Source: Siphonodentalium dalli
Lineage: Eukaryota > Mollusca > Scaphopoda > Gadilida > Siphonodentaliidae
Assembly (NCBI GenBank): GCA_032622095.1
Contig: CP136069.1
Span: 3,561,566 to 3,625,565, forward strand
Length of the DNA: 64,000 bases
Direction: 5' to 3'
The notes below the pieces were generated by a model. It was not told the origin of the DNA, did not search any database, and worked only from the letters and a program-made list of their open reading frames with translations. Both the position numbers and the translations under genes were made by a program. Below, one piece after another: positions 4,308 to 39,892 of this stretch (the first letter of the stretch is position 1; every line of letters starts with the position of its first letter).

Positions 4308-4342
4308 CTCCAACCTGAACAATTTCTTGAGCAAGTGAGACC
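4308..4342 (-). CDS. Exon 7 (35-nt microexon) of the minus-strand helical-protein gene
   Basis: The acceptor is TGTTTTCTCTTTCAAG and the donor GGAG|GTAAGT. It is read in phase 2 to 1 as VSLAQEIVQVG, after the leucine codon is completed from exon 6. It is the last exon found; the gene should continue left of base 1 or in an exon I could not see. Confidence 0.72.
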
Positions 4343-7300: not shown

Positions 7301-10300
7301 ATGCTGTGGTTAAGGGGTCGATTATTTAGGGCATTACTGTATCTTCCCCAATTTGTCATTCATTTCTGGATGTTGAGCCCATGGGCTACACTGTCACTGT
7401 TGTATACACGGGCATTTCGTTGTACATAAATATTTATTGACAGTACGAATATTTTTAATATATCGATATCTGTATATGGACAATCTACACATGGCCCATC
7501 TTTGTTATTGTGCTTGACACAGGCAATGTGCCAACTTTGCAGCAACGCCACGTCCCCCTGTATCCAATATTCCCGATACGGTAATTTTTCCTGAAAACTC
7601 ATCAAATAATGTCATATTAAATGGACAAATTCATTTGAATGGTGGTACCAAATAGTCTTTAGCATGTCCTCTTTAGTTATGTCATATAATAAAGATAGCA
7701 CTTGATTTTGTACATAATTGTAGTGTTGTATGACGATCATTGATCAGTACATGCCTGCTATATACAAAAAAAATTATGATATACTATAAATGTTTCAGAG
7801 TTGTCTTATAAATTCCTTCGCCCTACATGTAAAATTACTCACAGCATAGGGCTGCTGCTCCATAAATTCTTATAAATTACATTGTCCTACATGTAAAATT
7901 ACTCACAGCATAGCCATAAATTCTTATAAATTACATCGTCCTACATGTAAAATTACTCACAGCATAGCCACAAATTCTTATAAATTCCATCGTCCTACAT
8001 GTAAAATTACTCACAGCATAGCCATAAATTCTTATAAATTCCATCGTCCTACATGTAAAATTACTCACAGCATAGGGCTCCTGCTCCATAAATTCTTATA
8101 AATTACATTGTCCTACATGTAAAATTACTCACAGCATAGCCATAAATTCTTCATCTTGCATGTACTCTTCTTTTAAAATCAGAGGACAGTTCTCCAGAAG
8201 TATATTCAATGTCTTCAAGGTCTGAAAAAATACAATGAGAGGCCGATCACAATCGGCAGATGTTTAACCCATACCTTGGTGATAGCGATTAGCTATAACT
8301 GATAATTGGTCAAAGATATGATCACAGTAATCCATATATCAGTACCTAACTTAAAATCAAAAGCTCAAATAATTTGTCTTAAGAAGGGGTTAAAGTATTT
8401 GGGGTGGGGGAGGAGTCCTTTTAAATCTCATAACTCTATCCTATTCACACAAGGACCTCTCACTGTGAGATCCAATGGTTTAGCGATTAATCAATTTGAC
8501 AGATAGGATAAACAATTATCCAGCCAGCAGGTTGTTTATCTTTACCTTCATACAACCACCCCCTAGAGCAAGGGCCCAAGCTAGGGTTTGAAAACGGAGA
8601 AGTGACTTCTCCCTGTGGAGATTTTGTGAACAACTTCTTTGATCAGAAGGGCATATTTTAAGGCAATGTTTCGCCAAATGGTCAGAGAGATGGGACAACA
8701 ACATTATGACTTATATGTTTTAATATATGTTTTGGCAAAACAAATCAAATTACCACCGGTAAATCTCAGTTTGGTCAAATTTGGAAGGCGACTTCGTTTT
8801 CGCCTCGCGGACGTCTGAGGGCGAAGTCGTCAGCCGGAAGGCGAGAACTTCGCCCGAGTCGTCTCCTAGCTTGGGGCCTGCCTAGAGCTCTGTACCATAT
8901 GTCACCACTCAATTAATAACAGATTTCACTTGGAATGACATCTATTAAAGGTAATCTCATATACTCTGGATATTGGATGTTCACATGGTAATTTATTGCT
9001 ATCATTATATTACATGCAACTATTGCAATAAAATCTTCATATTTTCACACCTAATTAATGGTATACAACTAAAACAAATTAGTGTCAATAACAAATAATT
9101 TTTTTTAATTAAATAATTTTTTTATTATTATAAAAGTTTTAAAATATTTTTTGTGTGTTAAATTTGAGCGAGGAGTTCAATCTAAAAACAAAATTAAAAT
9201 TAAAATAAATATTGTTTTCAAAAAAAGGGTCATAACTCCTTTAAAATAAATCGGATCAAACCCATATTTGAGCTCAATCTGTATTTTGGGCTTGCGTGAA
9301 ACTGATAAGTTAGTATTCAGGCACTATGCCAACTGGAGGAAAAAGGTATTCTACTAACATTGCCGAAAATCTCAAGCAAATCGACCATACCACTCACAGA
9401 CACTCCATAGAAAACATCATCTGAATTACGCTCAATTGTAAATATTTACATCTCGATTCGAGACGCAACTATTAGTGATAAACTAACAAATATGATTTCG
9501 CCATGCAAGATTCACAGCATTTTATTAATATACAAGAATGATTATTCTCGATCTATTTTATCACCCTACCGGAGTGTTTCACATCACTTTAACCCTTTAC
9601 CCAACAAAACGGCCAAAACCGGCCAAATAAAGCTTCAACAGCCTAAAATATCTTCGGTCTGTCGCAATAGAACCATACAAATATGGATATCATTGAAACC
9701 GGCTCCTTGACCACATTGTGATAGTTACAGTTATGCCCTGTGCCAATGCATTCTCTTATTTATGCGAGTCGACCATAGGTCGCCTCGCATATATAAGAGA
9801 ATGCATTGGCCTAAACAAAAATTTTTTTTAACACTTTTTACCATTTGTTCTTACATTCTTTAACAATTTTATAATTTTTAATGTGTTAAGCCAATGCATT
9901 CTCTTATATATGCGAGGCGACCTATGGTCGACTCGCATATATAAGAGAATGCATTGGCACAGGGCCGTTTTGTTGGGTAAAGGGATAAAAGGCTTCCCCG
10001 AATAAGTTGAATTTATTTGACAAGTAGCTTTTTTAGAAATGAAAAATTTCTAAGTCAACAAGGGCCAGAACTCCGGTGAAAAGGAGTAGACCAAACCTAA
10101 ATTTGAATTTGACCTGCATTTTCATGTGAGTAATCCAATTACCAAAAACACAGAAACCAAAATAATCGACAAATTCTAAGTAGACAGGGACCATAACTCT
10201 GGTAAAAATAGCTGGACTGAACCCAAAGTCAAACTAAACCTGTATTTTATGTGGGTAATCCACATACAGTAATGCCCTAAATAATCGACTCCTTAACCAC

Positions 10301-13300
10301 AGCAGAATTATGGGTAACTTTTCAGGATTTAGTCGAAAATATGGCTTGTTGCCATTCGTCAGTAAGCTCTCACTGAGAGCTTTCCGATGAATGGCAACAA
10401 GCCATATTTCCAACTAAATCCTGAAAAGTTACCCATAATTCTGCTGTGGTTAATGAGTCAATTATTTAGGGCATTACTGTACTACGACCAGATGGATGGA
10501 CACCAGTGATTTATATAGTCCCCTGAAAACATTTCGGGGGGAGAACCCCACTTACTTTCAAGACTGTCTGATCAGAATAACCAGCTTAACCCTTTACCCA
10601 ACAGAACGGCCCTGTGCCAATGCATTCTCTTATATATGCGAGTCGACCATAGGTCGCCTCGCATATATAAGAGAATGCATTGGCTTAACACATTAAAAAT
10701 TATAAAATTGTTAAAGAATGTAAGAAAAAATGGTAAAAAGTTTTAGGCCAATGCATTCTCTTATATATGCGAGGCGACCTATGGTCGACTCGCATATATA
10801 AGAGAATGCATTGGCACAGGGCATAACTGTAACTATCACAATGTGGTCAAGGAGCCGGTCCCAATGATATCCATATTTGTATGGTTTTATTGAGACAGAC
10901 CCAAGATAATTTAGGCTGTTGAAGCTTTATTTGGCCGGTTTTGGCCGGTTTGTTGGGTAAAGGGTTAATTGATATAAAAATTAAAAAATATTGGCATGTT
11001 CTGAGCAAGCCTTGAAATAGGGTGTCTGTCATTTGCAGAATGAGGTCCCCAGAGTGTGAATTTAGTGATGCTACCCCACATAGCGGGCTAGCATCACCAA
11101 ATTCACCCTCTGGGAACCTCATTCTGCTGAGGTGTAAGCAGAATGAGGTCCCCAGAGGGTGAATTTGGTGATGCTAGCCCGCTATGCGGGGTACTCTTGA
11201 GTGCCTAATAAAAGTACAGGGTGGAATAATAGTACAGGTTGGAAAATGTCGCATAACTGAATAATAGTACAGGCGGAATAAACGTAGACTGGAAATATTA
11301 GTACCATTCATCCCAACAAAACGCACCATCTGACTGGTTTACTGATGCCATGGGACAGAAATAGTTTCGATGGATAGCCAGGTCTGTGAATCTACAGAGT
11401 GCTGATCACTGTCAACAATCAAGAGTTCATTTATTTAAGTGAATTGGTGAATTATTTCTTTTGGTTAATTTAATAAACATACAGGACCATATAACGATCG
11501 TACAGGTGGGAATTTTACCTAGATTTTAATAATCGTACATGTATGTTTATCACATAATTTGGCCATAAAAGCAGTTTCATAATTATCGGTAATAGACACG
11601 TTTAATATCAGCGCGTGCGATGACGTCACGGCGTTCTTCAAATAACTTGCGATCGCTGTAGTTTATGATTGTTGTTTTCGATGAATATTTCGCGTTGCTT
11701 CGGGTTTATTTGATCATGTGATAAAAGTTATCTCACACTCGTCCTATTTTATACGTAATTTATCAACCTCGTCCTCTAAATTCTATTTGAGCCTCGGTAA
11801 ACCTCGGCTCAAATCGAATTTAGTGAACTCGGTTGATAAATTCCGTATAAAATAGAAACTCATGTGAGATCCTCTATTTATTAGGCACTCAAGAGTAGCA
11901 TCACTAAATTCACCCCCTGGGGGACTTCATTCTGCAAATGACAGACACCCTATTTCAAGGCATGTTCTGAGAATATTCATGAAATCTCGTACCTCAAGTC
12001 TCTGTAAGAAACTGGCTTTCTTGTTCAATGATATTCCGAACAATATGGTGCAACAGGACCTCACTATCTCCAGCTTACCTATGGAAATAAATTATACACG
12101 TACATGTACACACGACCATCAACACAAATTATACACGTGCACACTATCATCTACACAGATTATACACGTAGACACTATCATCTACACAGATTATACACGT
12201 ACACACTATCATCAATACAAATTATACACATACATGTACACACTATCATCAACACAGATTATACATGTACACACTATCATCTACACAGATTATACACGTA
12301 CACACTATCATCTACACAGATTATACACGTACACAAAATCATCAACACAAATTATACACATATATACATGTACACACTATCATCAACACAGATTATACAT
12401 GTACACACTATCATCAACACAGATTATACACGTACACACTATCATCAGTCCTTCCCAGGAGGAAAACACAACAAGAACACTTATTTGCAATTCATAAGAC
12501 GGATGTAATTGCACCCTGTAATATATAATCATAAGTTAGGTGTTTCTCAAACAAAATGTCATAATGGGACATCTACATGTAGTCACACTTTCACATGCCC
12601 ATAATTGAATTGAAACAGAAAATGATCAAAATAAACCTTGAAATAGTTCAATATTAAATCAACGATTACAGTCATCATAATCATTTTGACAAGAGGGATG
12701 AGTGCACATTTTGGCACCTGTAAATTTAAAATTGCGAGTGTGTACGGGTGCGAGAGCAATCCCTCCCATCTCCTGGGAAGGACTGTATCATCAACACAAA
12801 TGATACACGTACACACTATCATCAATACAGATTATACACGTACATGCTATCATCAACATGGATTATACACGTACACATTATCATCAACACAGATTATACA
12901 CATAGACATTATCAACACAGATTATATTAATGTATGTCGTAATCGGAAGTCAAGAAGATGACCCAAATCGGTCAATTTGCAACTTCAATCAGCAATCGTC
13001 ATCATCGCCGTGACGATCTCAACAACATTCTCCTATTTATATAAACGTCATCAAATCATTATTTGTTTTCGAATGACAAGGGCAAGTAGGCTTATAATGT
13101 ATTTCTAATAGGTCTACTCACTCTACTGAATCAAATTCTCGGACCCTATCCGAAAGTTTTGGATACTTGTCAGTTGGACAACGTTATTGGAAGTTTTAAT
13201 TTTCACGACAAATGGGCTATGCCCCACATAAATAGGTATTTGACATATTAAACTAAAATAACTTGACCCACATTTCTGCTATATAACCCTACTTGATGCT

Positions 13301-16300
13301 ATAGTCGGCAAACTCGGGAAAATAACCATAAATTCATTGTGGCAAAAATCCCTATTTTAATGGTATTTGTCGGTTTTTATGGCCGTTTTGTGATAAAATT
13401 GACAAAACATTAATATTCCTTGTGAAATTGGTGGTATTTGGACCAAAAAAGTCACATTTTGCTATAAAAACACGAGATTAAACACACAAAAAGCATTTTC
13501 TGTCTCCAGAAAAAGGGCAAGTCCTGCCCCCGCTCGCCCCCCTTGGTCAAGGGCAGGGGGGTCAGCTGCCCCCTCTGCCCCCCTCTTCCGGCGCCCCTGA
13601 TACTGCATGGTACTGTATGTAGAGACTTTGTGAAAGGAAATAACATAATATTTAAAATGGAATTAACCCTTTGCCCAACAAACAGGCCAAAAACGGCCAA
13701 ATAAAGCTGCAACAGCCTAAATTATCTTGGGTCTGTCTCAATAAAACCATACAAATATGGATATCATTGGAACCGGCTCATTGACCACATTGTGATGGTT
13801 ACAGTTATGCCCTGTGCCAATGCATTCTCTTATATATGCGAGTCGGCCATAGGTCACCTCGCATATATAAGAGAATGCATTGGCCTAAAAAAAATCTTTT
13901 TTTAACACTTTTTACCATTTTTTCTTACATTCTTTAACAATTTTATAATTTTTAATGTGTCAAGCCAATGCATTCTCTTATATATGCGAGGCGACCTATG
14001 GCATTGGCACAGGGCCGTTCTGTTGGGTAAAGGGTTAATTGTTAAGTCTGCATACATACATCTGATAATCCACATATCCTACTATGCAGAAGATACATTC
14101 AGGTTCAGGAGAATTTCGGTCAATGGGGAAAGTTACATAATGACATCGTTCGTCGACATTCGTTGAAATCGACATGATGACATCTTTTGAATGAAATGAA
14201 GATTATGAAATGGACACGCCTCTCCATCTGGCCTGAGTATCTCAAGCGTAGAGCTCCCCATGCAGCGCGCCAAGTTATATAATGGTTAGTTTCAGTTCCA
14301 CTGTCGACAATAAGAACTATTTTCACTCTTGAGTACTTTTACAGTAATGCCCTAAATAATCGACTCCTTAACCACAGCAGAATTATGGGTAACTTTTCAG
14401 GATTTAGTCGGAAATATGGCATGTTGCCATTTATCGGAAAGCTCTGTCATATTTCCGACTAAATCCTGAAAAGTTACCCATAATTCTGCTGTGGTTAAGG
14501 AGTCAATTATTTCGGACATTACTGTATGTTGGTTGTGTTATTTGGGGTTTAAAAACATGAGATGGTGGAGAACCCGTTTGTTTACATTTTAGGCCCTTGT
14601 GAATAGTGGGTTTTTTATCAAATCAAATTCGAACAAAATAGCTCTAAAACTATTCGAAAACAAATTGATTATTTCATAATCTTGCTTGCCGAAATGATAA
14701 GATAAATAAATGTTTCCCATTTCCGTCTGTATATCAGAATTATATTATTTAAAACACATTGTCATCTTGTTTTGTGAACGGTGGATGACACTTAAAGACA
14801 CAATTATGATTCAAAATATAACAAACAATTAGGAAAATACGCTTTTCATGCATAGTAAATAAAAACTTCCGACATCATTAGCGGGGAATAGCACATCGAT
14901 TCAAAACGCTAAGTTAGGAGTGTTATTAATGACCCATACACTGATGCTAAGTTAGAAGTGTTAATGACCCATACATGCTAATGCTAAGTTAGAAGTGTAA
15001 TGACCCATACACACTAATGCTAAGTTAGAAGTGTTATTAATGACCCATACACTGATGCTAAGTTAGAAGTGTTAATGACCCATACACACTAATGCTAAGT
15101 TAGAAGTGTTATTAATGACCCATACACTGATGCTAAGTTAGAAGTGTTAATGACCCATACACACTAATGCTAAGTAAGAAGTGTTATTAATGACCCATAC
15201 ACTGATACATACCATCTTTGCTCCATTCACCCAGAATCTTGAAAAAGAAGAAAAAAAGATAATGAGATGAATATTTATCACATAATTAGCTCCGAAACCC
15301 AGCCTCATATTTTTAAGTGAGAAACATGTGTATTGGCATGCACAGCTTAGTACAATGTACAACTTAACCCTTTACCCAACAAACCGGCCAAAACCGGCCA
15401 AATAAAGCTTCAACAGCCTAAAATATCTTCGGTCTGTCTCAATAGAACCATACAAATATGGATATCATTGGAACCGGCTCCTTGACCACATTGTGATAGT
15501 TACAGTTATGCCCTTTGCCAATGCATTCTCTTATATATGCGAGTCGACCATAGGTCGCCTCGCATATATAAGAGAATGTATTGGCCTAAAAAAAATTAAA
15601 AAATTTACACTTTTTACCATTTTTTCTTACATTCTTTAACAATTTTATAATTTTTAATGTGTTAAGCCAATGCATTCTCTTATATATGCGAGGCGACCTA
15701 TGGTCGACTCGCATATATAAGAGAATGCATTGGCACAGGGCCGTTCTGTTGGGTAAAGGGTTAATACAGATGACAATGTCAATGCCACTATGGGGAATCA
15801 CGTGGTTTTGAGTTGATGAGTATCACGCATTCAAAATGGCCGAGGCGATCTAAAACGCGACCAGAAGCGAGGAAAAAAGGTAATAAACTAAGATATGACA
15901 TATTACATAGCATTTTGACAGCTACAAGCAGATGCTATACTATCTTTCAAACAAGCTGATACCTCATTTATGTCCAAATTCACATTTGTTTGCTCTACTA
16001 TTCTGACCAAAGTTGTCAATCAAAGGATTTTCCAAGAAGTATGGACTGGTGTATTCCTCGCACCTCGGACTGGCAACTTTGGACAGAATGTTATAGAAAA
16101 CCACAAAGTATTTCCGAACAAATAAGGTATAAACTTGTTTCAAAAATAAACCAGCATATGCTCGTAACAGACAAACTGCTACGTTTTGTGTCCGTTCCTC
16201 GTATAGTATGATTTTGTGCATTTGTATATTTTGAATGCATGGTACTAACCAACCTCAAACCATGTGATTCCCCACCGTGAATGCCAGAACTTTATTAATA

Positions 16301-19300: not shown

Positions 19301-22300
19301 GTATGCATACATGTATAATATATGTGAATTGCTACAGAACATAACCTTTAAGTTTACATTATATATATAGATGAAATGAGTCATTCAGAGATGTGGCTAG
19401 AGGTTCCCTAATGTGGGGGGGATTGTCCACCTTGGAAATTTCCAACTGAACCCCCCCCCCAAACTCCTAGGACACATAATTCAATTTGCACCCCAAAGTT
19501 TCCAACTAGTGCCTGAAGCTTTTACAACTGATAGCCATTTAACCCTTTATAGAGCCCCACATAGACTGGAGCAGACGACACTCTGCAGTGCATGCTTCCA
19601 TCTGTGTGAGGCTCCCTGTAGGATAAATCTCTTAATTAACCCTTTACCCAACAAACCGGCCAAAACCGGCCAAATAAAGCTTCAACAGCCTAAAATATCT
19701 TCGGTCTGTCTCAATAGAACCATACAAATATGGATATCATTGGAATCGGCTCCTTGACCACATTGTGATAGTTACAGTTATGCCCTGTGCCAATGCATTC
19801 TCTTATATATGCGAGTCGACCATATGTCGCCTCGCATATATAAGAGAATGCATTGGCTTAAAAAAAATCTTTTTTTACCATTTTTTCTTACATTCTTTAA
19901 CAATTTTATAATTTTTAATGTGTTAAGCCAATGCATTCTCTTATATATGCGAGGCGACCTATGGTCGACTCGCATATATAAGAGAATGCATTGGCACAGG
20001 GCCGTTCTGTTGGGGAAAGGGTTAAGATAAAACATTTGACCAAAAGTCTAAAAACAACAAAATTCCCAAATGGTTGGAAAATCAAACAATATATAAGAAC
20101 AATGTCAACCTACAGTAATGCCCTAAATAACCTGTATGGTGCCCCTCACGGACACGAGCAGATGACAGTCAGTAATAGATCCTTCTATCTGTGTGGGGCT
20201 CTCTATGGGAGTTAGTCATATATAGTAGAGACACACCCCTAAACCCCGAAGCCACGACAAATAGTTTTCGTGGCTGGCTCAACCAATTTCGTGGCTGGTT
20301 AGCTAAGCTGGCTCAGTCGCGACGTTCGTGGCTGACGAAATATGGCGGCTCAGCCAGCTGAGACATTATCAGTCAGCGTATTATCATTTCTGAAATATTC
20401 CTAATCCCCAGTTATATACCCCAATTAAGTCCTTCGTATATGAACATAATGGAAAAGCCCAACACGGGCAACACCAAATGAATATGTGTGGTCTGGCATT
20501 CGACGGGTTCACCACCAACGCTAAAACAAACGCATGGATGTACTATGTAGTTTCCCCATCTAATCGATATAGTTACATTGAGACTTCTGTCGACTTCAGA
20601 CTGCTATCATTACTGGCATCTTGTGATATATGCATGCATCATTGAATGATGAATCCGATAGCAATGATATAATATTTCAAACTATTTTCTATTCTCTTCT
20701 ACAGGTTATGTGCATATATTGACAAAATTAATGTCGGCAATGTCTGAGACTGAGTCGTGTCGAAATAAACAATTTATACCTTAACCCTTTCAATACTGAG
20801 TGGATGCTCCCATTCATATGAAAGCATGCATTGGAATAGTCTATTCCACATTGAGGGCCCAGGTGTTCTGATATTAATATAACAACCATGCCGTGTAGAG
20901 ATGGGCGGTTAACCGTGGAATCAGTTCGGTTTCGGTTGTCGGGAAAAACCGGAAATGACAACCGTGGTAAGTTGGAAAAACCCGTAGTTTCGGTTGTCAC
21001 AACTTCCTGTAATCATGGCAGAACACGACGAACAAACGAGTCCTGTGTGGTAATATTTTTCAAAGAAAGATAAGAAATCTTGCCGCCTGTAATATATGCA
21101 GAAAGGAGTTCGCATGGTGAAATCGCGCGACGAATTAATTACGTTGCTTCCGTGTACACCTATTTTCGCCGTAGTAAACACAACAAAAGTCACTAGTTTA
21201 TTTCTCATGTTATTTTAATCATTAAGGCCGTACAAATACTCTGAAAGGTGAATTTGATAACGAGGATACGATATGAAAAGGTATCAATGATTGTTACCCG
21301 CATTCCCTATTAGTTTTTATCACTGTTTGGATGTTAAATCGTCAAATATATTTGTGCGCCGTTGATTAAAAATGTTATGCCGGAATCGGAGCCGGAATGA
21401 ATTATACCGTTTGTCGGTAAACTGTTGAGAAATAGCACTCATTCAGGTGACTTGTATTGGATGCATGTATACTGTATAGTGTGTACAATATTATGTTCCC
21501 TAAATATGGTAATAGGCATATAGCCAGATAATGTGATTGAGAGATTCTAGTCATGTTTTATTTTCATTTTGTTGTTTATTTCAAATTTTATTTTTCAAAT
21601 CATAACTATACACATATATCTAGTCACACACATTAGTTTTATGCCAATATAAATGATCAATATATTATTTCACACTTATGATCACATGATGCTGAATTGC
21701 AGTCATACACAATACACAGACTCACTTGCATTCTAGCACTGCCACTCGACATGGACATTAACAATATACATGTAATAGTAACAATATGATACATAATTTA
21801 ATATTATAAAAGGACATGTACCTCACAAGTTATGGTGATACAATTGGTGTGTTTTCTTTGTAATATGATGAAGCATAATTAGATTTTGTTCACATTAGTA
21901 ATTTTTATTAATAAAAACCGAAACCGAAACCGAGACTCAACTCTTTTTCCACAACCGAAACCGAGGCAAAATTTCACAACCGCCCATCTCTAATGCCGTG
22001 TCCATGCGACTATGCCAGTATTAGGCAATGCGGTTTAGTTCTTTGCGTTTCACAGAACAGTTTTGCTTGACATATTAGCCCATTCACACGTACGGCTCTG
22101 CCATTTTACAATTCTGGCGGCGGAGATTTTTTCATGTGGCTGGCGTTAGAGATAATATGGCTGGTGGTGGCTTGTGGCCAATATGGCTGGCGGCGGCGTG
22201 CGATGGCGGCTTTGGGCTTTACACACCCCTCCCTCGCCACATCCCTGGAGTCATTGAACATTAGTTTTACACATATAGTTTCGGTAAATTGGAGAAGGTT

Positions 22301-25300
22301 ATCAGGCTGTTCTGGTTTCTTACTTACACATATAGTTTCGGTAAGTTGGAGAAGAAGGTTATCAAGCTGCTCTGGTTTCTTAACAGCTGTCGAGTTCAAT
22401 CTGAATTTCAGAATGAGTTCTCTGATCTGTAAATAATAAAGAAGACACAATTGAAATTTCTGGTGGTTACTGTAATACAGTAATGCCCCAAATAATCGAC
22501 TCATTAACCACAGCAGAATTATGGGTAACTTTTCAGGATTTAGTTGGAAATATGGCTTGTTGCCATTCATCAGAAAGCTTTCACTTAAAGAAACTATTAT
22601 CAACCATACTTTGATTACGAGCATGAGTAGCTTCATACATGGAAACCCTGTGCACAAAATATCGATACTCAGCAGTCCCGCGGCATTCTTCAATGTTACG
22701 CCACATTTTCATATTTGTATTACGCTGTATACAAGGTCACTAATTGACTGCACACCAAACATTGCATTGTAGTTTTGGCGCTTAATTCTATTTTACAGTG
22801 TTAAATTGACCTGCTGTTTCACCAGTATTCTGTTTAACCTTCGAACTCCCATTGCAGTCGGATTATTCAATAGATTGCTATTGACTTTAGGTACATGTAT
22901 GTCTCAAACATATCATCAGCAAGGGGAATGAGGATGCTGAGCCATAGTAACGGAAACTCTGGAACATGCCCAATTATTTGAATATTCAATTTTCAGTATG
23001 AACTGCTCAAAAATAGAAATATATACTGCAGTTAATGATGGTGGGTCCTGCTTAATTGATATGATGCTGGTAGAACAAACTGATGCTGTTAAGAAAAAGT
23101 ATCTTATGTTTTCTAAAGTTGCCATTTTCACGGTGATCAGATAATCTGAACATATCTGAGAAAAGCCATCATGTGTTTCAAAAATAAAAAACATTCATAT
23201 GACATAATTGTAAAATATTTTATTCCCTTGTTCCCAATCATTATCAAACTTGGATCCCTGCCCCAAGAGCAGGGGCGCCGGAAGAGGGGGGCAGAGGGGG
23301 CAGCTGACCCCCTTGCCCTTGACCAAGGGGGACGAGCGGGGGCAGGACTTGCCCTTTTTCTGGAGACAGAAAATGCTTTTTGTGTGTTTAATCTCGTATT
23401 TTTATAGCAAAATACCACAAATTTCACAAGGAATATTAAGTTTTTGTCAATTTTATCACAAAACGGCCATAAAAACTGACAAATACCATTAAAATAGGGA
23501 TTTTTGCCACAATGAATTTATGGTTATTTTCCCGAGTTTGCGGAGAAAATGCCCTTTTTTGCGGAAAAGTGCCCTTTTTGTAGGGTCTGCCCCCCTGCCC
23601 TTGGATGCTTCCGGCGCCCCTGCCCAAGAGAGCATGCTAAACCAAGATTCACACCCCCAGGGGATTTGCTTGTTGTTAAATGTGACACAATAGTTGAGGT
23701 TAAGTACTAACTATCATGTAAAACTGGTTGTATATTAGTTATTGCAAATCAACTATAATCAAGATGGATATTCACATCATTTTGCAAACATCAGGGCAGC
23801 CATTATTAAATTTTTTTTTAATTTGACCCGCCATATCAAATCCAGTCGTAAGTCGGGATTTTTTTACCCTGTGCCAATGCATTCTCTTATATTAGTGTAG
23901 TGACTTAGCGACAAAATTTTGTCATATTGGAACGGACTGGCCAAAAGTGCCATTTTTATATATTATGTCAAGTTAGGTGTGCTCTTTCAGAAAGTGAACT
24001 AGAAACAGGTTTATGATCAATATTAACCCTTGTTTCCAGTATAAATCCAAGATGGCGGCCAAATTCAATCATTATTTCACCATGACGTTCCAACTGGTAT
24101 ACAATTTAAGGCACATGCATAATAAAGGCATCATTCCATCCGGCATTGTCATATTTTGAAGATATTAGCAATCCAGGCTGACCAAATTTGAAAATTATCA
24201 CTTTTTGGACCAAAAGCATGAAATTTTGTCATAAAATCATTCTCGTTTCAATTATTTCGGAATAATAAACAGACAATTTCTCAAAACTGTTTCAGTGCAG
24301 ATCAAAGGTTAAGATCTTAAAACTTTCAGAAAAGTATACTGCAAACAAAATATACAACAACTAGGACAAATTCGTAACCATATTTTAGACATTTTGGATT
24401 ATGTTACCCCTCACCCCAAAAATCATGACATTTTGTTTTTGTGATAAACATCCGATAGAACATGGATGAGAATCTATAAAGGGCACTATTCGATCACGTT
24501 TCTAAATACTGTAATTGCAATTACACACACAATGACCAAAGTTGAAATTTACAACTTTTTCGACTAAAATATTCAATTTTGTAAGAAAATCCTCGTCATT
24601 TCAAATATTTTGGTCCAATAAATGGTCATTTACACATAAGATATTTGCGATAGTTCAAAATGTTTGGTCTTAAATGTTTTGGACATATATACTGAAAACA
24701 ATGAATACATTTTCTGTGGTTAATATGTAACAACGTTTCAGAAAATTTGGTTTATGTTACCCCTCACCCCAAAAATCACGAAAATGTGACTTGGTAAATG
24801 TATTTTAAGATTCAATAAATCTTTGGTTAAATCTTATAAAGTGAGTTTGTCGATGACAATTAGTCATATATTGTTATGTAACAATCTCATTGACAGTATA
24901 CTGTTTAAATATACAATTGTATGCCTAATAACAGCTATATTTTATGGTAAAATAACCATCATTTGAAATATTTTCAACCAATATATGGGCAATTTCTCAA
25001 AATTTCCCAAGATCGTATACCACGTGCGGCCTTGAAAGTTTCGAAAATGACTGTCGAATACAACACATTTAAAGGTGTATACATGTCATGTCTTGGTGAA
25101 ATAGAATAAAATTCTAATAATCTATTATACCATAAATAATTTGAAGGTTTTGACTTATATAATCTACAAATGTAGCATACAATAGGGGGTATATATAGAC
25201 ATGTAGTTCAGATCACAACTTTAATTTGTCTATCAATAATACACATAACATAAAGATGGTCTATCTTTGTTTATACTCTGTTCTTAAATTCACGTTTGTT

Positions 25301-31300: not shown

Positions 31301-34300
31301 CATACGGAAAAAAAACATGGCCGCCAGTGGCCATCTTAGATTTCAAAATTCAATCCATTAGCACGGGCTACAGGCCGTACTGTTCATCTGATCGTCATGA
31401 AATTTGTTATGGATGTTAATATTGACATGTAGATGGGAACGAGTAATTTTGAGGTCATTCGGCCAAAAAACATGGCCGCCAGCAGCCATCTTCGATTTTA
31501 CTCTTTGCATGACTAAATCCTTTAGCACGGGCTACAGGTCGTACCTTTAGTCAGATCGTCATAAAATTTATCATGGCTGTTGAAATTGGAATGTAGATGG
31601 GAACGAGTCATTTTGGGGTCATTCGGACAAAAAACATGGCCGCCAGTGGCCATCTTTGTTTTCAAAATTCAATCCATTAGCACGGGCCACAGGTCGCACT
31701 GTTCGTCTGATCATCATGAAATTTGTCATGGATGTTAATATTGTCATGTAGATGGGAACGAGTAATTTTGGGGTCATTCGGCCCAAAAACATGGCCGCCA
31801 GCAGCCATCTTGGATTTTACTCTTTGTATGACTAAATTCTTTAGCACGGGCTACAGGTCGTACCTTTAGTCTGATCATCATAAAATTTGTCATGGATGTT
31901 AACAATGACATGTAGATTGGAACGAGTCATTTTGGGGTCAATTGGCCAAAAAACATGGCCGCCAGCAGCCGTCTTGGATTTTACTCTTTGCATGACTAAA
32001 TCCTTTAGCACGGGCTACAGGTCCTACTTTTCGTCTGATCATCATAAAATTTGTCAAGAATGTTAATAATCACATGTAGATGGGAACGAGTCATTTTGGG
32101 GTCATTCGGCCAAAAAACATGGCCGTCAGCAGCCATCTTGGATTTTACTCTTTGTATGACTAAATCCTTTAGCACGGGCTACAGGTCGTACCTTTAGTCT
32201 GATCATTATAAAATTTGTCTTGGCTGTTGATATTGGAATGTAGATGGGAACGAGTCATTTTGGGGTCATTCGGACAAAAAACATGGCCGCCAGCGGCCAT
32301 CTTGGATTTCAAAATTTAATCCATTAGCATGGGCCACAGGTCGTACTGATTGTCTGATCATCATGAAATTTGTCATGGATGATAATATTTACATGTAGAT
32401 GGGAACGAGTAATTTTGGGGTCATTCGGCCAAAAAACATGGCCACCAGCAGCCATCTAAGATTTTACTCTTTGTATGACTAAATTCTTTATCACGGGCTG
32501 CAGGTCGTACCTTTAGTCTGATCATCATAAAATTTATCATGGATGTTAACAATGACATGTAGATGGGAACGAGTAATTTTGGGGTCAATCGGCCAAAAAA
32601 AATGGTCGCCAGCAGCCATCTTGGATTTTACTCTTTGTATGACTAAATCCTTTAGCACGGGCTACAGGTTGTATCTTTAGTCTGATCATCATAAAAATTT
32701 TCATGAATGTTAATAATGACATGTAGATGGGAACGAGTCATTTTGGGGTCATTCGGCCAAAAAAGATGGCCGCCAGCAGCCATCTTGGATTTTACTCTTT
32801 GTATGACTAAATCCTTTAGCACGGGCTACAGGTCGTACCTTTAGTCTGATCATCATAAAATTTTTCATGGCTGTTGAAATTGGAATGTAAATGGGAACGA
32901 GTCATTTTGGGGTCATTCGGACAAAAAACATGGCCGCCAGTGGCCATCTTGGATTTCAAAATTTAATCCATTAGCACGGGCCACAGGTCGTACTATTCGT
33001 CTGATCATCATGAAATTTGTCCTGGTTGTTAATGTTGAAATGTAGATGGTAACGAGTAATTTTGGGGTCATTTGGCGAAAAAACGTGGCCGCCAGCAGCC
33101 ATCTTGGATTTTACTCTTTGTATGACTAAATTCTTTAGCACGGGCTACAGGTCGTACCTTTAGTCTGATCATCATAAAATTTGTCATGGATGTTAACAAT
33201 GACATGTAGATTTGAACGAGTCATTTTGGGGTCAATCGGCCAAAAAACATGGCCGCCAGCAGCCATCTTGGATTTTACTCTTTGTATGACTAAATTCTTT
33301 AGCATGGGCTACAGGTCGTACCTTTAGTCTGATCGTCATAAAATTTGTCATTGATGTTAACGATGACATGTAGATGGGAACGACTCATTTTGGGGTCATT
33401 CGGCCGAAAACATGGCCGCCAGCAGCCATCTTGGATTTTACTTTTCTCTTCATGTCTATAAACTAGTATTAGACATTCAACTTTCCACATTCCTAATCGC
33501 TCCATTGACTGTAATATATTAAATTATTCCCTTTCCAAGTTGAGCTACAGTGTCATTGACACTTTCATTTCTTACATTCTTTAACAATTTTATAATTTTT
33601 AATGTGTTAAGCCAATGCATTCTCTTATATATGTGAGGCGACCTATGGTCGACTCGCATATATAAGAGAATGCATTGGCACAGGGCCCTTCTGTTGGGTA
33701 AAGGGTTAAATGACCTACCAGGTCTATGACTCCTGCCTCAAACAACATACTGACATTTTCCGAGGCAGCATCTTCAGTAAAGTCAGGTAGATTTTGTACT
33801 GTCTCAAGAAGTAAGCAAATATTCTTTGATAAGTCTTCGAAACTGCAATCCTTTGTTTCCTGCATATAAAATGAATACAATCACCTGTCGTACTCCAACA
33901 CATAATTAATACAATAATCATTTATTCCAACACTGATTTAATACAATCACCTACTGTCATACTCCAACACATAATTAATACATGTGCAATTATCACTTAT
34001 TCCAACACTGATTTAACACAATCATCACCTACTCCAAACAAGAATTACAGTAAAACCTCTCCAAACCGGACCCTCTATAAACTGAATCCTTCTCCATACC
34101 GACCGAATTGTCCGGAAATATGATACGTTTCTAGATATGGCACTTTCCTATGCTCATATTTAAATTCGCGCAGAACTATTTTTTGCTCAGTTTTGAATTC
34201 GCGCACTTTAAATTCATGCAGCTGCGCGAATTCAAAACTGACAAAAATATTTTCGAGATATTTCTGTGATATTTTCGTACATCTTGGAGCTACATGTAAT

Positions 34301-37300: not shown

Positions 37301-38966
37301 TATTTTGGTATATAACAGTTGGTAAGTACAATGTATAATATATGCAATATTTCATGAATAAAGTTTGCACAATACATCCCTACGTTTTATTTACGTTTTA
37401 TGGGCCATGCGAGGTCGAGTAAATGTAAATTGAACAATTATCAGTAACACATCACAGTATACATATGTATATAATGACCACTCGTCTGCAACAATTGACA
37501 GTTTGCCGACAGAGAAAACAATAACTTTAAAACAAAGGGATGTAATCATATAACAAGGCCCATGTGCGTTTTAGCATAAATTTTTAGAGTTATATCCCTT
37601 CGACCATAGCGCTCAACACCACACATTAAGCACCACATTCGGTTTCAAATTTCCATTTTATTTATTCGTGAGGAATTGGTTGTTTCAACTTGTTTGTGAG
37701 ACTATTTATTAGTGGTAATTGGTAGCACCGTGAGTCTGCGTGAGACTTCAATGTACATATACGGCAGCCCTGGGAATTAGCGTCGACAATGGGCAGTGCC
37801 GAGGCAAAAGCCGATGTGAAATGAATTTGCATTTTTTTAGCCGAGGAAAATAAATATATACATGTTCAATTAGTTTTATGAATTTGACGTTTGTTGAAGC
37901 GATAGAATCATAGCAATGCCATGATCCGTACGGCACATGTCCACAAAATCATTTTACTCCGAATTTGCACACATTGACACAGTGACACCATCAGCTGGTG
38001 TGGTCAATATAAAATCTGACATCGTAATCCGTCTCCAAGCAACCGGTTACGGTTGATAGAGCAAGCTGCACCAACTTGAAAGGAGGTCATTGTGCCAGTC
38101 GCATGCACTCGACAAACCTGCAATATCACAATGTAGCCAACTGATGCTAGCGCTTTGATGTTTCCGACGAAGCATATCCAACTTGACAAGCACTTTTTTC
38201 CACTGCATATTTCTGGGAATACTTACTCTAACTTCCCTGTTTGTTGGGACCATATGATGGGTTTCAACCTACATGGAGAATATTACAACTTGGGACGGTT
38301 TTACGATATTTTTATATCAGACGATATTATTGACGATATCAAAATTAAAACCGGCTATACCCGATATATCGTCATATCGCCCAGCACTAGTTGGGTTACC
38401 CTCTAACTGTGGTAAAAATGTTCAACAGTTGGAAATTCCTTGACTGACACAGCAACAGTGGAAATTTCGAAACAAATATAGCTTAATTAAAATTATTATG
38501 ATACATGTAGTTTAGTGTGGAATATGCTGTTTTCTGACCAAAAATTGAATATTTAACTACTTTTGGTAAAATTTCGGACTGAAATGGCCATTGGCTGGAA
38601 TTTTTTCAGCCATATATACATGTATGTTGCTATATGTTGGAAATTATGAACAGTTGGAAACATTCAAATACCAGTTGGAAAACTCTGAAATTACAAAAAT
38701 GTCCCACAGCAAATTTTGTGCTGTGGCATATGTTAGATTCCACATGTTGCCACGGCATTGCTTATATAAATTGCCATGGCCAATTTTGAGGACTGCATAC
38801 CTGGACTATGAATATTCAATAGCTTGTTGTCATAACTGGACTATAAATATTCAATATCTTATTGTCATACCTGGATAGTTGATGCAATAACTTTGCTCAG
38901 TTTTTGGACGTTATTCCCAGAATTGTTGTTGAGAATGGTCTGCAGGTTTGAGAATGACATCTTGAT
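4308..38966 (-). CDS. Seven-exon part of an unnamed alpha-helical (ARM/HEAT-like) protein gene
   Basis: Seven small minus-strand exons join into one open frame: 38966-38871 (96 nt), 33859-33719 (141), 22426-22328 (99), 15237-15213 (25), 12078-11993 (86), 8221-8133 (89) and 4342-4308 (35). Junction phases are 0, 0, 0, 1, 0 and 2, and all match. Each exon has a pyrimidine-rich AG acceptor and a GT donor (GTATGA, GTAGGT, GTAAGT, GTATGT, GTACGA, GTGAGT, GTAAGT). The product, about 188 residues from the first ATG, is rich in leucine and isoleucine in amphipathic helices (for example LKTLNILLENCPLILKE and FMAMLVSLAQEIVQVG), as in armadillo/HEAT solenoids. I see no catalytic motif, signal peptide or membrane segment and do not recognise the family. 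It is open at the 3' end (last exon ends in phase 1). Extra phase-0 exons between those listed cannot be excluded. Introns are 3-11 kb and filled with transposons. Confidence 0.8.
4343..5797. other. Intron, mostly unexplained
   Basis: A small foldback occurs at 5452-5557 (CCCCTATTTGAACAAA against TTTGTTCAAATAAGGG). A minus-strand frame at 4870-5199 has an acceptor-like upstream site but no phase fit with the neighbouring exons. Confidence 0.45.
5798..6251 (+). mobile_element. MITE-A copy 1
   Basis: TTAA-CCCTTTACCCAACA at the left and TGTTGGGTAAAGGG-TTAA at the right, with two 69-bp palindromic modules inside (the first shortened). TTAA flanks with CCC...GGG ends suggest piggyBac-type mobilisation. 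Confidence 0.9.
6252..7124. other. Non-coding, nothing recognised
   Basis: Intronic sequence. A plus-strand frame at 6781-7047 has no splice or family support. Confidence 0.4.
7125..7341. mobile_element. MITE-G, complete copy (TA foldback)
   Basis: A near-perfect hairpin: TACAGTAATGCC...GGCATTACTGTA, arms of about 105 bp meeting at GCTCTCACTGAGAGC. TA at both ends fits a Tc1/mariner-type MITE. Confidence 0.9.
7804..8155 (-). repeat. Minisatellite built from a splice-donor region, 54/64-bp units
   Basis: Six copies of the exon-6 donor (plus-strand ACTCAC at 7837, 7901, 7955, 8009, 8063 and 8127), each with 'cctacatgtaaaattactca' and 'cataaattcttataaatt'. Units are 54 bp, or 64 bp with an extra 'gggctgctgctc' type segment. 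Confidence 0.92.
8133..8221 (-). CDS. Exon 6 of the minus-strand helical-protein gene
   Basis: The acceptor is GTATTTTTTCAG and the donor GCT|GTGAGT. The 89-nt exon is phase 0 to 2 and reads TLKTLNILLENCPLILKEEY...FMAML. The exon end plus donor is copied five more times downstream (7804-8132), each copy with its own GTGAGT. Two copies carry a longer exon tail (GAGCAGCAGCCC or GAGCAGGAGCCC), so the original exon end may have differed. Confidence 0.8.
8222..9339. other. Intron without recognised genes
   Basis: It includes a GC-rich inverted stretch near 8785-8870 (GCGACTTCG / CGAAGTCGTC) and a 'gggtcataactcct' mollusc-type repeat fragment near 9226. Confidence 0.45.
9340..9540 (+). repeat. Dispersed repeat K, copy 1
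   Basis: About 200 bp shared with 45265-45465 (GCCGAAAATCT-AAGCAAATCGAC, CTCAATTGTAAATATTTAC). The function is unknown. Confidence 0.75.
9589..9988 (+). mobile_element. MITE-A copy 2
   Basis: TTAACCCTTTACCC at the left; the right end is GGGTAAAGGGATAA, a mutated TTAA. Two complete 69-bp palindromic modules. Confidence 0.9.
10033..10264 (+). repeat. Two diverged units of a 'gggccataactc' repeat
   Basis: 10033-10160 and 10161-10264 share 'aaattctaagt-aacaaggg-ca-aactc-ggt' and 'ctgtatttt-tgtg-gtaatcca'. The same style of repeat is common in bivalve introns. Confidence 0.55.
10265..10481. mobile_element. MITE-G, complete copy
   Basis: TACAGTAATGCCC...GGGCATTACTGTA, with a foldback centre CTCTCACTGAGAG. 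Confidence 0.9.
10586..10968 (-). mobile_element. MITE-A copy 3, inverted
   Basis: TTAA at both ends, with the short arm (CCCTTTACCCAACAG) on the left and the long arm on the right. Both palindromic modules are complete. Confidence 0.9.
11194..11895. mobile_element. MITE-E copy 1, inside MITE-D and itself interrupted
   Basis: TIR CTCTTGAGTGCCTAATAAA at the left and its complement at the right, flanked by TA on both sides. The interrupted MITE-D site reads GGGG-TA-GCATC without it, as in the copy at 35208. It contains a 326-bp insert at 11551-11876. Confidence 0.88.
11551..11876. mobile_element. 326-bp foldback insert inside MITE-E
   Basis: This segment is absent from the second MITE-E (39893-40278), where the site reads GTTTATTAGG. 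Here TTTAT is duplicated at 11546-11550 and 11877-11881. Its right half folds back on itself (CGTCCTATTTTATACG-AATTTATCAACC against GGTTGATAAATTCCGTATAAAATAG). Confidence 0.75.
11993..12078 (-). CDS. Exon 5 of the minus-strand helical-protein gene
   Basis: The acceptor is AATTTATTTCCATAG and the donor GAG|GTACGAG. The 86-nt exon is read in phase 1 to 0: KLEIVRSCCTILFGISLNKK...FLQRLE; the other two frames have stops. The 31-bp minisatellite of 12085-12440 merges into the acceptor's upstream tract, and a foldback element (MITE-D) starts about 20 bases beyond the donor. Confidence 0.8.
12085..12440 (+). repeat. 31-bp minisatellite, part 1
   Basis: Units of ATTATACACGTACACACTAT plus CATCWACACAG. 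Because 31 is not a multiple of three and the unit has no stops, all three frames stay open and give spurious proteins. Confidence 0.92.
12446..12785. mobile_element. Element H (TIR CAGTCCTTCCCAGGAG) inside the 31-bp minisatellite
   Basis: CAGTCCTTCCCAGGAG opens and CTCCTGGGAAGGACTG closes it, with TATCAT on both sides (the minisatellite itself contains TATCAT). Repeat units continue directly afterwards. A related end lies near 52474-52503. Confidence 0.8.
12786..12935 (+). repeat. 31-bp minisatellite, part 2
   Basis: Continuation of the 12085 array after element H, with more diverged units. Confidence 0.88.
12936..13317. other. Non-coding, nothing recognised
   Basis: Mixed sequence between the minisatellite and a hAT-like MITE; no exon seen. 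Confidence 0.4.
13318..13599 (-). mobile_element. CAGGGGCGCC hAT-type MITE, truncated copy
   Basis: It ends CTTCCGGCGCCCCTG and matches the complete copies at 23270-23622 and 40511-40888 in inverse orientation; the other terminus is missing. Confidence 0.8.
13663..14038 (+). mobile_element. MITE-A copy 4
   Basis: TTAA both ends. The second palindromic module has lost its right half (GGCGACCTATGGCATTGGC). Confidence 0.9.
14340..14526. mobile_element. MITE-G copy with shortened centre
   Basis: TACAGTAATGCCC...ATTACTGTA; part of the second arm near the loop is deleted. Confidence 0.85.
14527..14904. other. AT-rich intron, nothing recognised
   Basis: No gene or repeat end seen. Confidence 0.4.
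14905..15206 (+). repeat. Minisatellite next to exon 4, alternating units of about 37-41 bp
   Basis: Units GCTAAGTTAGAAGTGTTA(TTA)ATGACCCATACAC. Long and short forms alternate, giving a higher-order dimer. The array ends about six bases from the exon-4 donor. Confidence 0.9.
15213..15237 (-). CDS. Exon 4 (25-nt microexon) of the minus-strand helical-protein gene
   Basis: This exon has the strongest acceptor in the window (TTTTTTTCTTCTTTTTCAAG) and donor GATG|GTATGT. It reads ILGEWSKD plus one base, taking the frame from phase 0 to the phase 1 that the next exon needs. It was found by searching for an exon that would repair the phase between 22.3 and 12.1 kb, and the fit is exact. A minisatellite (14905-15206) begins about six bases into the downstream intron. 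Confidence 0.75.
15364..15764 (+). mobile_element. MITE-A copy 5
   Basis: TTAA-CCCTTTACCCAACA to TGTTGGGTAAAGGG-TTAA, with both modules complete. Confidence 0.92.
15791..16274. mobile_element. Foldback element, TIR TGGGGAATCACGTGGTTT
   Basis: The left arm TGGGGAATCACGTGGTTTTG is matched by AACCATGTGATTCCCCA at the right, with similarity running about 50 bp inwards (CATTCAAAAT in both). No clear target duplication. Confidence 0.65.
16427..16816 (-). mobile_element. MITE-B copy 1, 5'-truncated
   Basis: It matches the right part of the 34568 copy and ends CCTGGCACTGAAAGGATTAA. It carries one 69-bp palindromic module. Confidence 0.85.
16817..17640. other. Non-coding, with a solo MITE-B end
   Basis: A MITE-B left tip (TTAACCCTTTCAGTGCCAAG) lies at 17316-17366 without the rest of the element. 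No gene recognised. Confidence 0.55.
17640..17770. repeat. Hairpin with 30-bp arms
   Basis: GGGTACATGGAGATTTAATA at 17668 is repeated inverted as TATTAAATCTCCATGTACCC near 17721; outer GTTATCT/AGATAAC extend it. Confidence 0.8.
18004..18397 (+). mobile_element. MITE-A copy 6
   Basis: TTAA at both ends (right end AAAGTGTTAA), both modules complete. Confidence 0.92.
18469..18595 (+). repeat. Tandem duplication of about 65 bp
   Basis: CATACATGTATAGTCATGTC and CCTATTACCGGTGGTCCTTT occur twice, with a partial third copy. Confidence 0.85.
18645..19129 (+). mobile_element. MITE-B copy 2, complete
   Basis: TTAA-CCCTTTCAGTGCCA to TGGCACTGAAAGGG-TTAA. One 69-bp palindromic module, identical in sequence class to those in MITE-A, follows the short left arm. 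Confidence 0.92.
19130..19635. other. Non-coding with a 'gagccccac' foldback fragment
   Basis: 19552-19625 (GAGCCCCACATAGACTGGAG to GTGTGAGGCTCCC) resembles 20140-20215, 28733-28810 and 62411-62462, a degraded hairpin family. Confidence 0.5.
19636..20025 (+). mobile_element. MITE-A copy 7
   Basis: TTAA both ends, both modules present. Confidence 0.92.
20026..20887. other. Non-coding, with a MITE-G tip
   Basis: A MITE-G terminus (TACAGTAATGCCCTAAATAA) at 20113-20132 and a GTGGCTGGCTC repeat near 20260-20360; no exon seen. Confidence 0.5.
20896..21992 (+). mobile_element. hAT element, 1.1 kb, with 8-bp TSD ATGCCGTG
   Basis: Perfect 15-bp TIRs TAGAGATGGGCGGTT / AACCGCCCATCTCTA, flanked by ATGCCGTG at 20888-20895 and 21993-22000. 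The 8-bp duplication and TAGAGATGGGCGG end are hallmarks of the hAT superfamily. Most of the transposase is gone. Confidence 0.93.
21015..21125 (+). pseudogene. Remnant of hAT transposase N-terminus (BED-finger-like)
   Basis: From ATGGCAGAACACGACG the frames give MAEHDEQTSPVW, a stop, YFSKKDKKSCRL, then a frameshift to ICRKEF. The 'W-F-K.....C..C' pattern fits the start of a BED zinc finger as in hAT transposases. It has at least one stop and one frameshift. Confidence 0.5.
22001..22327. other. Intron start beyond exon 3, including a copy of the exon end
   Basis: 22272-22327 repeats the 3' part of exon 3 with its donor. 22100-22215 is a GGC-rich imperfect repeat (GGCTGGCGGCGG). Confidence 0.7.
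22328..22426 (-). CDS. Exon 3 of the minus-strand helical-protein gene
   Basis: The acceptor is CTTTATTATTTACAG and the donor TGT|GTAAGT. The 99-nt exon is phase 0 to 0 and reads IRELILKFRL...LLLQLTETIC. Its last half is tandemly duplicated downstream (about 22272-22327), including a second GT (TGT|GTAAAA). The frame stays open through the copy, so use of the distal donor would add a near-repeat of KKPEQ-DNLL-TETIC. Confidence 0.82.
22476..22585. mobile_element. MITE-G, left half
   Basis: TACAGTAATGCCCCAAATAA to CATTCATCAGAAAGC; the right arm is absent. Confidence 0.85.
22586..23261. other. Non-coding, with a short dispersed repeat
   Basis: 23045-23130 (minus) matches 29061-29140 (plus): CAACTTTAGAA and TAACAGCATCAGTTTGT. 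This repeat also mimics an acceptor, so an exon call here was rejected. Confidence 0.5.
23270..23622 (+). mobile_element. hAT-type MITE, TIR CAGGGGCGCCGGAAG, TSD CCCAAGAG
   Basis: CAGGGGCGCCGGAAG / CTTCCGGCGCCCCTG with an 8-bp duplication CCCAAGAG at 23262-23269 and 23623-23630. Confidence 0.93.
25450..26510 (-). pseudogene. Left-arm copy of an uncharacterised transposon-borne gene
   Basis: On the minus strand: a diverged FNDY segment (about 26440), then an open stretch at 26289-25918 with CQEEADIRIVPHIIHALSCG, VDTDVLVMVIGLFSKFTDA and ALGDD, then, after frameshifts, a W-rich segment and a Cys-rich tail at 25560-25450. The EEADTR / DTDV / Cys-rich tail order is that of a large family of uncharacterised proteins in coral, oyster and sponge genomes (recalled, not searched). 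Biochemical role unknown. Disrupted by stops. Confidence 0.6.
26530..27175 (+). pseudogene. Right-arm copy of the same gene, internally deleted
   Basis: On the plus strand, in shifting frames: FSAIPNDQVQEQENIKLKG and GLTE near 26570-26660, GTQSDLLGCIREAIGDISD near 26770, FDGGVLVDMIVP near 26850, FNDYAQSLMKFLLYRLRSV near 26910, then directly the Cys-rich end CSELIKCCCKSQTCNRCKC near 27050. The EEADTR region present in the left arm is missing. This supplies the upstream half that the left copy lacks. Several frameshifts and stops. Confidence 0.6.
29177..29737 (+). repeat. 33-bp minisatellite, about 17 units
   Basis: Unit GGACCACTATATCAGGGGTG plus GTAACTCTATTCA. The length is a multiple of three without stops, so both strands show long spurious frames. 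Variants GGGGTGG and GGGGCGG fall in blocks (GTGG mainly left, GCGG mainly right). Confidence 0.95.
29870..30212 (+). repeat. 52-bp minisatellite, about 6.5 units
   Basis: Unit GTACTGTTATTAAAACAATT plus TAGATTTACACGCTGTAGTA and ATATTCCGACCT, nearly identical copies. Confidence 0.95.
30213..30826. other. AT-rich non-coding, nothing recognised
   Basis: No exon or transposon end seen. Confidence 0.4.
30827..33709 (+). mobile_element. MITE-A copy 8, split by a pearl/HINE insertion
   Basis: TTAA-CCCTTTACCCAACA at 30827 and GGGTAAAGGG-TTAA ending at 33709. The AT-rich spacer between its two modules is broken in the run of T after 'tttttacca'; intact copies read CCATTTTTTCTTAC there. Confidence 0.92.
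31086..33567 (+). mobile_element. Complete pearl/HINE-like element, 2.5 kb
   Basis: It starts AGCTCAACTTTAC with an immediate hairpin (GTAAAGTTTGAGCTA), then a GTGTGTGC microsatellite and about 14 core units of 160 bp (CATGGCCGCCAGCAGCCATC, 'tagcacgggctacaggtcgt', 'catgtagatgggaacgagtc'). It ends AAGTTGAGCTA followed by a perfect stem AGTGTCA-T-TGACACT and TTTCA. Subterminal inverted repeats, a 3' stem-loop, tandem cores and insertion between Ts match non-autonomous Helentrons. Confidence 0.85.
33719..33859 (-). CDS. Exon 2 of the minus-strand helical-protein gene
   Basis: The acceptor is TTTTATATGCAG and the donor CTG|GTAGGT. The 141-nt exon is phase 0 to 0 and reads ETKDCSFEDLSKNICLLLE...LFEAGVIDL. 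It ends in the kind of 'FEAGVIDL' segment typical of armadillo repeats and joins directly to IRELILKF of the next exon. A TTAA transposon (MITE-A carrying a 2.5-kb pearl/HINE insert) begins only nine bases into the intron and leaves the donor intact. A 75-bp tandem duplication starts about 22 bases upstream of the acceptor. Confidence 0.83.
33882..34040 (+). repeat. Tandem duplication of about 75 bp near the exon-2 acceptor
   Basis: CATACTCCAACACATAATTA-type units and TTATTCCAACACTGATTTAA occur twice, with a third partial copy. Confidence 0.85.
34045..34567. other. Intron with a pogo-like end and nested hairpins
   Basis: TACAGTAAAACCTCTCCAAA at 34046 resembles a Tigger/pogo terminus but has no partner. 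Inverted pairs: GCTCATATTTAAATTCG with CGAATTTAAATATGAG, and CAGTTTTGAATTCGCGCA with TGCGCGAATTCAAAACTG (34172-34247). Confidence 0.55.
34568..35014 (-). mobile_element. MITE-B copy 3, complete
   Basis: TTAACCCTTTCAGTGCCAGG to CTGGCACTGAAAGGGTTAA with one palindromic module; inverted relative to 18645. Confidence 0.92.
35208..35463. mobile_element. MITE-D copy 2, uninterrupted
   Basis: AAGCCTCGAAATAG to CTATTTCAAGGCTT with four GCAGAATGAGG arms. It shows the unfilled TA site that MITE-E occupies in copy 1. Confidence 0.85.
35464..36147. other. Non-coding, repeat-like
   Basis: 'ccataacttttccagact' type segments recur at about 35568, 35925, 35960 and 36030. 'gcacatgagtaataattagg' with 'cctgatgtattggataatgc' occurs twice (35480-35540 and 36078-36148), a direct duplication flanking this block. 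Confidence 0.6.
36148..36515 (-). mobile_element. MITE-A copy 9, with collapsed modules
   Basis: TTAA ends. The first module has lost its centre (CTCTTATATATATAAGAG), the second its left half. Confidence 0.9.
36543..37065. mobile_element. MITE-D remnants, three decayed pieces
   Basis: GCAGAATGAGGTTCCC arms at 36543-36652, ACAGATTGAGGTCACC to GACCTCATTCTGCAT at 36833-36958, and a single arm at 36987-37065. Confidence 0.65.
37221..38389 (+). mobile_element. hAT element, 1.17 kb, with 8-bp TSD GTTGGGTT
   Basis: TIR TAGGGCTGGGCGATAT / ATATCGCCCAGCACTA (one mismatch), flanked by GTTGGGTT at 37213-37220 and 38390-38397. Subterminal ATATCG repeats. No transposase frame recognised; non-autonomous. 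Confidence 0.93.
38398..38870. other. Intron beyond exon 1
   Basis: It contains the duplicated donor region at 38797-38870 (units of about 36 bp with CTGGACTAT-AATATTCAATA). No other feature recognised. Confidence 0.6.
38871..38966 (-). CDS. Exon 1 (first coding exon seen) of the minus-strand helical-protein gene
   Basis: The acceptor is TTATAATTTCAG and the donor CAG|GTATGAC. The 96-nt exon reads IKMSFSNLQTIL...VIASTIQ and ends in phase 0. The ATG at the third codon has a good context (AAGATG), so translation probably starts here and the first six bases are 5' UTR; an upstream coding exon cannot be excluded. The donor region is repeated just inside the intron: the CCAG|GTAT-like boundary recurs at about 36-bp spacing through 38797-38876. 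Confidence 0.72.
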
Positions 38967-39502: not shown

Positions 39503-39892
39503 CATGGTTACAGTTATGCCCTGTGCCAATGCATTCTCTTATATATGCGAGTCGACCATAGGTCGCCTCGCATATATAAGAGAATGCATTGGCTTAACAC
39601 ATTAAAAATTATAAAATTGTTAAAGAATGTAAGAAAAAATGGTAAAAAGCGTTAAAAAAAGATTTTTTTTAGGCCAATGCATTCTCTTATATATGCGAGG
39701 CGACCTATGGTCGACTCGCATATATAAGAGAATGCATTGGCACAGGGCATAACTGTAACCATCACAATGTGGTCAATGAGCCGGTTCCAATGATATCCAT
39801 ATTTGTATGGTTTTATTGAGACAGACCCAAGATAATTTAGGCTGTTGCAGCTTTATTTGGCCGTTTTTGGCCGTTTGTTGGGTAAAGGGTTA
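39503..39892 (-). mobile_element. MITE-A copy 10, outer arm truncated
   Basis: Two complete modules and the right end GGGTAAAGGGTTA, whose TTAA is split by MITE-E copy 2. Confidence 0.85.

Follow-up and report, generated by a model that had tools for sequence, protein, structure and literature searches.

The window analysed here comprises 64,000 nucleotides of the genome of the scaphopod mollusc Siphonodentalium dalli (C9:3561566-3625565). Its minus strand carries a series of small exons that, to judge by the homology of the joined peptide, is the N-terminal part of a homologue of SYCP2, an axial-element protein of the synaptonemal complex. Seven of these exons had been described in a first-pass annotation as a seven-exon gene. 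They represent a fragment, since five more predicted exons chain on outside the window to give at least 12. The predicted exons are listed below, with coordinates counted from the first letter of the window unless the prefix C9 denotes genome positions; ARLD and SLD are the two domains of the SYCP2 N-terminal region.

38871..38966, minus strand: exon 1, 96 nt, ATCAAG then ATG; start of the ARLD; weak acceptor; matched in the whole-genome search
33719..33859, minus strand: exon 2, 141 nt, phase 0-0, ARLD; matched at one place genome-wide
22328..22426, minus strand: exon 3, 99 nt, phase 0-0, ARLD; matched in the whole-genome search
15213..15237, minus strand: exon 4, a 25-nt microexon encoding ILGEWSKD, phase 0-1, ARLD
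11993..12078, minus strand: exon 5, 86 nt, phase 1-0, ARLD; matched in the whole-genome search
8133..8221, minus strand: exon 6, 89 nt, phase 0-2, ARLD; donor inside a 54-bp tandem array
4308..4342, minus strand: exon 7, 35 nt, phase 2-1; leads to exon 8 at C9:3559341-3559199
C9:3559341-3559199, minus strand: exon 8, predicted; continues the phase
C9:3554774-3554722, minus strand: exon 9, predicted; continues the phase
C9:3548769-3548724, minus strand: exon 10, predicted, 46 nt; continues the phase; found with mammalian SYCP2 patterns
C9:3547747-3547643, minus strand: exon 11, predicted, the SLD exon; continues the phase
C9:3542925-3542860, minus strand: exon 12, predicted; continues the phase; weak donor (-2.8)

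The 12 chained exons range in size from 25 to 143 nt and span about 57.7 kb so far, and all have AG/GT borders with no stop and no break of frame. For the seven exons within the window, rechecking the letters confirmed the coordinates, lengths, borders and open frame as originally claimed, and the phases 0,0,0,1,0,2 again fit without exception when the exons were joined. The splice sites had also been called strong. When scored with a rough metazoan matrix, this description holds for most borders (2.1 to 7.8), but not for the acceptor of exon 1 (-1.7) or the donor of exon 3 (0.8), both of which are weak.

Agreement of phases proves to be extremely common in this DNA. The same stretch and strand yielded 148 different open exon candidates, between 25 and 141 nt long, whose sites are approximately as good as the weakest real ones, and all seven real exons are among them. 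From these candidates, 681,777,675 phase-compatible seven-exon chains can be formed when introns are at least 30 nt and split codons are not checked for stops. Phase fit by itself is very little evidence for an exon chain, and because compatible chains are so common, the seven-exon chain needs outside evidence.

Homology provides this evidence. The 188-aa peptide joined from the seven exons matches the Pfam family SYCP2_ARLD (PF18581) with an E value of 2.3e-6 and a score of 28.1 bits against a cut-off of 27.8, while the second family listed by Pfam falls far below its own cut-off. The alignment pairs peptide residues 3-160 with model positions 15-172 and has no net gap. Given that the aligned lengths are equal, junctions 1 through 5, including those of the 25-nt microexon, are crossed without net gap. 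Likewise, the best solved structure for this peptide alone is mouse SYCP2 (5iwz; E 0.0012, residues 91-188), and the next two structures have E values of 1.1 and 1.8. The earlier suggestion of an armadillo/HEAT-like product was well aimed, as SYCP2_ARLD is an armadillo-repeat-like domain. The ARLD part is diverged and its Pfam score is marginal; within the longer peptide described below it scores 25.9 bits, which is below the cut-off of 27.8. A whole-genome search with the SYCP2_ARLD profile did not pick out the locus, where the ARLD is divided among small exons, and the two matches that it listed elsewhere are weak (E 1.1 and 7.7).

The roughly 6.8e8 compatible chains in the stretch could be taken to imply that the claimed exons are open segments that happen to be in phase. 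However, none of ten stop-free decoy chains built from the same stretch without the real exons (122-156 aa, compared with 188 aa for the claimed chain) exceeded a Pfam cut-off. Four of the ten produced sub-threshold matches, the best with an E value of 0.024, versus 2.3e-6 and a score just over the cut-off for the claimed chain. Moreover, the claimed chain matches one family collinearly with no net gap, and it runs on in phase into the only SLD match listed for the genome. We consider a chance assembly to be exceedingly improbable.

That SLD match was found by prediction from the domain order of SYCP2, in which the SLD follows the ARLD directly. When the whole genome (2.23 Gb) was searched with SYCP2_SLD (PF18584), one match was listed at E values up to 10. 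It lies on the minus strand at C9:3547753-3547658 and scores 27.8 bits (cut-off 26.5, E 0.0047). Because the window begins at C9:3561566, this match lies 13.8 kb past its low end, on the same strand as exon 7 and downstream of it. Exons 8 through 12 were then placed in 70 kb fetched beside the window, with exons 8, 9, 10 and 12 chosen visually or through sequence patterns of mammalian SYCP2.

The 326-aa peptide encoded by the 12 exons matches SYCP2_SLD with 52.3 bits (cut-off 26.5, E 9.1e-14, model positions 1-63 of 112). Its match to mouse SYCP2 (5iwz) reaches an E value of 3e-33 and 118.4 bits over residues 91-325, although the share contributed by exons 8, 9, 10 and 12 is not independent because these were chosen with SYCP2 in mind; the next structure has an E value of 0.26. 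The ARLD and SLD follow one another directly and are collinear with mouse SYCP2, and both junctions of the exon 4 microexon are crossed gap-free in this alignment. The homology of the joined peptide to both domains supports the earlier claim that a real multi-exon gene is present.

The first-pass annotation had recognised no family in the product. A novel armadillo/HEAT family with no relation to SYCP2, as guessed there, would be in keeping with the divergence of the ARLD part and its marginal Pfam score, but the succession of ARLD and SLD in the order of mouse SYCP2, collinear and with an E value of 3e-33, makes such a family scarcely credible. A description of the gene as matching no described family was also rejected, because the peptide matches SYCP2 by Pfam (SYCP2_ARLD and SYCP2_SLD) and by 5iwz. 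By its domains the gene belongs to a known family, so that the original reading was right on the exons and incomplete on the gene, and an apparently unknown gene is corrected to SYCP2. The case illustrates that a diverged meiosis gene in small exons can be read from raw sequence, and that homology rather than phase fit validates the reading.

When the peptide was searched against the whole genome, all nine matches listed corresponded to exons of this gene (1, 2, 3, 5, 6, 8, 9, 11 and 12). Exons 4, 7 and 10, which are 25, 35 and 46 nt in length, gave no match on their own in this search, and no second SYCP2 copy was present among the matches listed. These results bear on whether the locus might be a dead copy of SYCP2. 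The region is rich in tandem arrays and palindromic elements and some of the splice sites are weak, both of which would suit a pseudogene. However, 12 chained exons are without a stop or frame break and have AG/GT borders throughout, and no better copy was among the genome matches listed, which together make a pseudogene very unlikely. We estimate a probability of about 0.96 that the seven exons encode most of the ARLD of an SYCP2 homologue, which is the sole copy found in the genome and probably an orthologue. SYCP2L is a vertebrate paralogue with ARLD and SLD domains. Since one gene was found here, we do not assign it to either SYCP2 or SYCP2L as a single vertebrate paralogue.

The gene probably extends further at both ends. 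The modelled frame takes the ATG at 38960 as its first codon; this ATG comes after an acceptor-like AG, and an in-frame TAA is located just upstream of the exon 1 acceptor. A coding exon upstream of exon 1 is likely because residue 3 of the peptide already aligns to position 15 of SYCP2_ARLD. No candidate for this upstream first exon stood out in the 35 kb above exon 1, either among 28 ATG-to-donor candidates with donor scores of at least 1.5 or in a longer list at a lower donor threshold that was read by eye. At the other end, the rest of the SLD and the C-terminal half of the protein (exon 13 onward) were not found by eye in candidate lists (at most 40 per phase) that reached down to C9:3512566, in an open-exon scan to C9:3527000, or in a pattern scan to 3520000. 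The intron after exon 12 carries a long tandem array (C9 about 3528600-3541000) that translates as repeated NNAGNIFLSLYLYL.

Immediately beyond exon 3, the intron carries an in-frame tandem copy, 57 nt long, of the exon's end (22271..22327, minus strand). The copy has its own donor, GTAAAA, which scores -4.7 compared to 0.8 for the donor of exon 3. With the copy included, the score against mouse SYCP2 drops from 118.4 to 113.5 bits, and for this reason we prefer the shorter exon 3 ending at donor 22328. That the copy serves as an alternative exon end, yielding an SYCP2 isoform that is specific to the lineage and in which a 19-aa ARLD segment is duplicated, is in our estimation unlikely.

Minisatellites overlap or adjoin several exon ends (7860-8151, 38796-38875, 14908-15206, 12089-12446 and 33874-34024). 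Tandem duplications anchored at donors or acceptors were considered as a general pattern and assessed with a border test, in which a close copy was defined as at least 19 of 24 bases matching within 400 bp. Such a copy accompanies 4 of the 24 borders of the 12 exons. The corresponding share is 22.9% among 3000 random positions, 32.6% among 270 donor-like sites and 22.8% in a sample of 600 from 684 acceptor-like sites. Exon borders show no excess of copies over these controls in this repeat-rich region, and the pattern was rejected.

Other features of the window include a near-perfect palindrome of 67 bp, which occurs as 24 hairpins (for example at 9748-9952, 10622-10809, 15523-15728, 39531-39735 and 42548-42752). 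Several pairs of hairpins spaced by ∼130-150 bp bound an element of ∼205 bp with an AT-rich middle and shared flanks, which looks like a non-autonomous mobile element. A 164-bp satellite unit is present at 1-701 and at 31211-33442, where the two arrays appear the same by eye and are in opposite orientations. The open reading frame at 61629-61994 (plus strand) ends in what we take to be a likeness to the C-terminal tail of LINE reverse transcriptases, and that at 25918-26370 (minus strand) has an EEADIRI...DTDVLV pattern presumably like those near transposons; neither has a Pfam match. Among the open reading frames of at least 120 aa in the window, 7 of 21 were tested and none of the seven has a Pfam match at an E value of 0.1. 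Rfam and tRNA scans of the window likewise returned no hits. In the genome, the molluscan haemocyanin family PF14830 gave no match, a result that does not demonstrate its absence.

Searches of the genome for families that partner with SYCP2 gave candidates for each. Seven matches were listed for Cor1/SYCP3, four of which form an ordered series at C7:147592402-147605225 that together spans model positions 1-132; two members of the series exceed the cut-off, and its last member is a weak match with an E value of 3.2. On C1 there is one match to the SCP-1 family (SYCP1), covering positions 70-109 of 787 with an E value of 1.2e-4, although this is a coiled-coil family and chance resemblance is hence a risk. 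Four HORMA matches are distributed between C7 (three) and C5 (one), and the best of them reads through four stops, as expected of a match that crosses an intron. The genome thus now has an SYCP2 locus together with likely partner genes.

By homology with mouse and silkworm, the protein would be made in germ cells entering meiosis, and the choice of testis and ovary reads in the first-pass annotation fits a meiosis gene. The ARLD of the protein would bind partners such as centromere proteins, as in mouse, and a closure motif beyond the SLD would bring in a HORMA-domain protein. At the C-terminus, a coiled coil would assemble together with SYCP3 to form the meiotic axis filament, which is the lateral element of the synaptonemal complex. 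We infer all of these functions, including expression, localisation, partner binding and the actions of the closure motif and coiled coil, by analogy with the known systems.

In mouse, the N-terminal region of SYCP2 consists of an ARLD plus an SLD, and binding to CENP J and CENP F was seen with the ARLD and not with the SLD (PMC5498334). Nucleosome binding by this region was not observed (PMC5498334), and we therefore make no claim of chromatin binding for the homologue. A closure motif past the ordered N-terminal domain binds the HORMA domain of HORMAD2 (PMC6349405). The same study describes coiled-coil assemblies of SYCP2 with SYCP3, from which filaments grow that make up the core of the meiotic chromosome axis. 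The S. dalli protein resembles mouse SYCP2 (5iwz) in its succession of ARLD and SLD, and the two proteins align collinearly across query residues 91-325 (E 3e-33). It differs in that it is diverged and that ∼27 residues at the start of the mouse chain lack a counterpart, as extrapolated from the alignment.

Compared by description only, the protein is also like silkworm SYCP2, another homologue outside vertebrates, which has an armadillo repeat and a PH-type domain. The silkworm protein is described as having N-terminal domains like those of mouse together with a closure motif, and as coassociating with SYCP1 on the synaptonemal complex (PMC10151401). Relatives of SYCP2 in molluscs, including oyster, as well as in echinoderms and cephalochordates were listed in 2014 (PMC4132317). 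The gene described here is like those of oyster and other invertebrates, again by their description only, in being an SYCP2 homologue outside vertebrates (PMC4132317).
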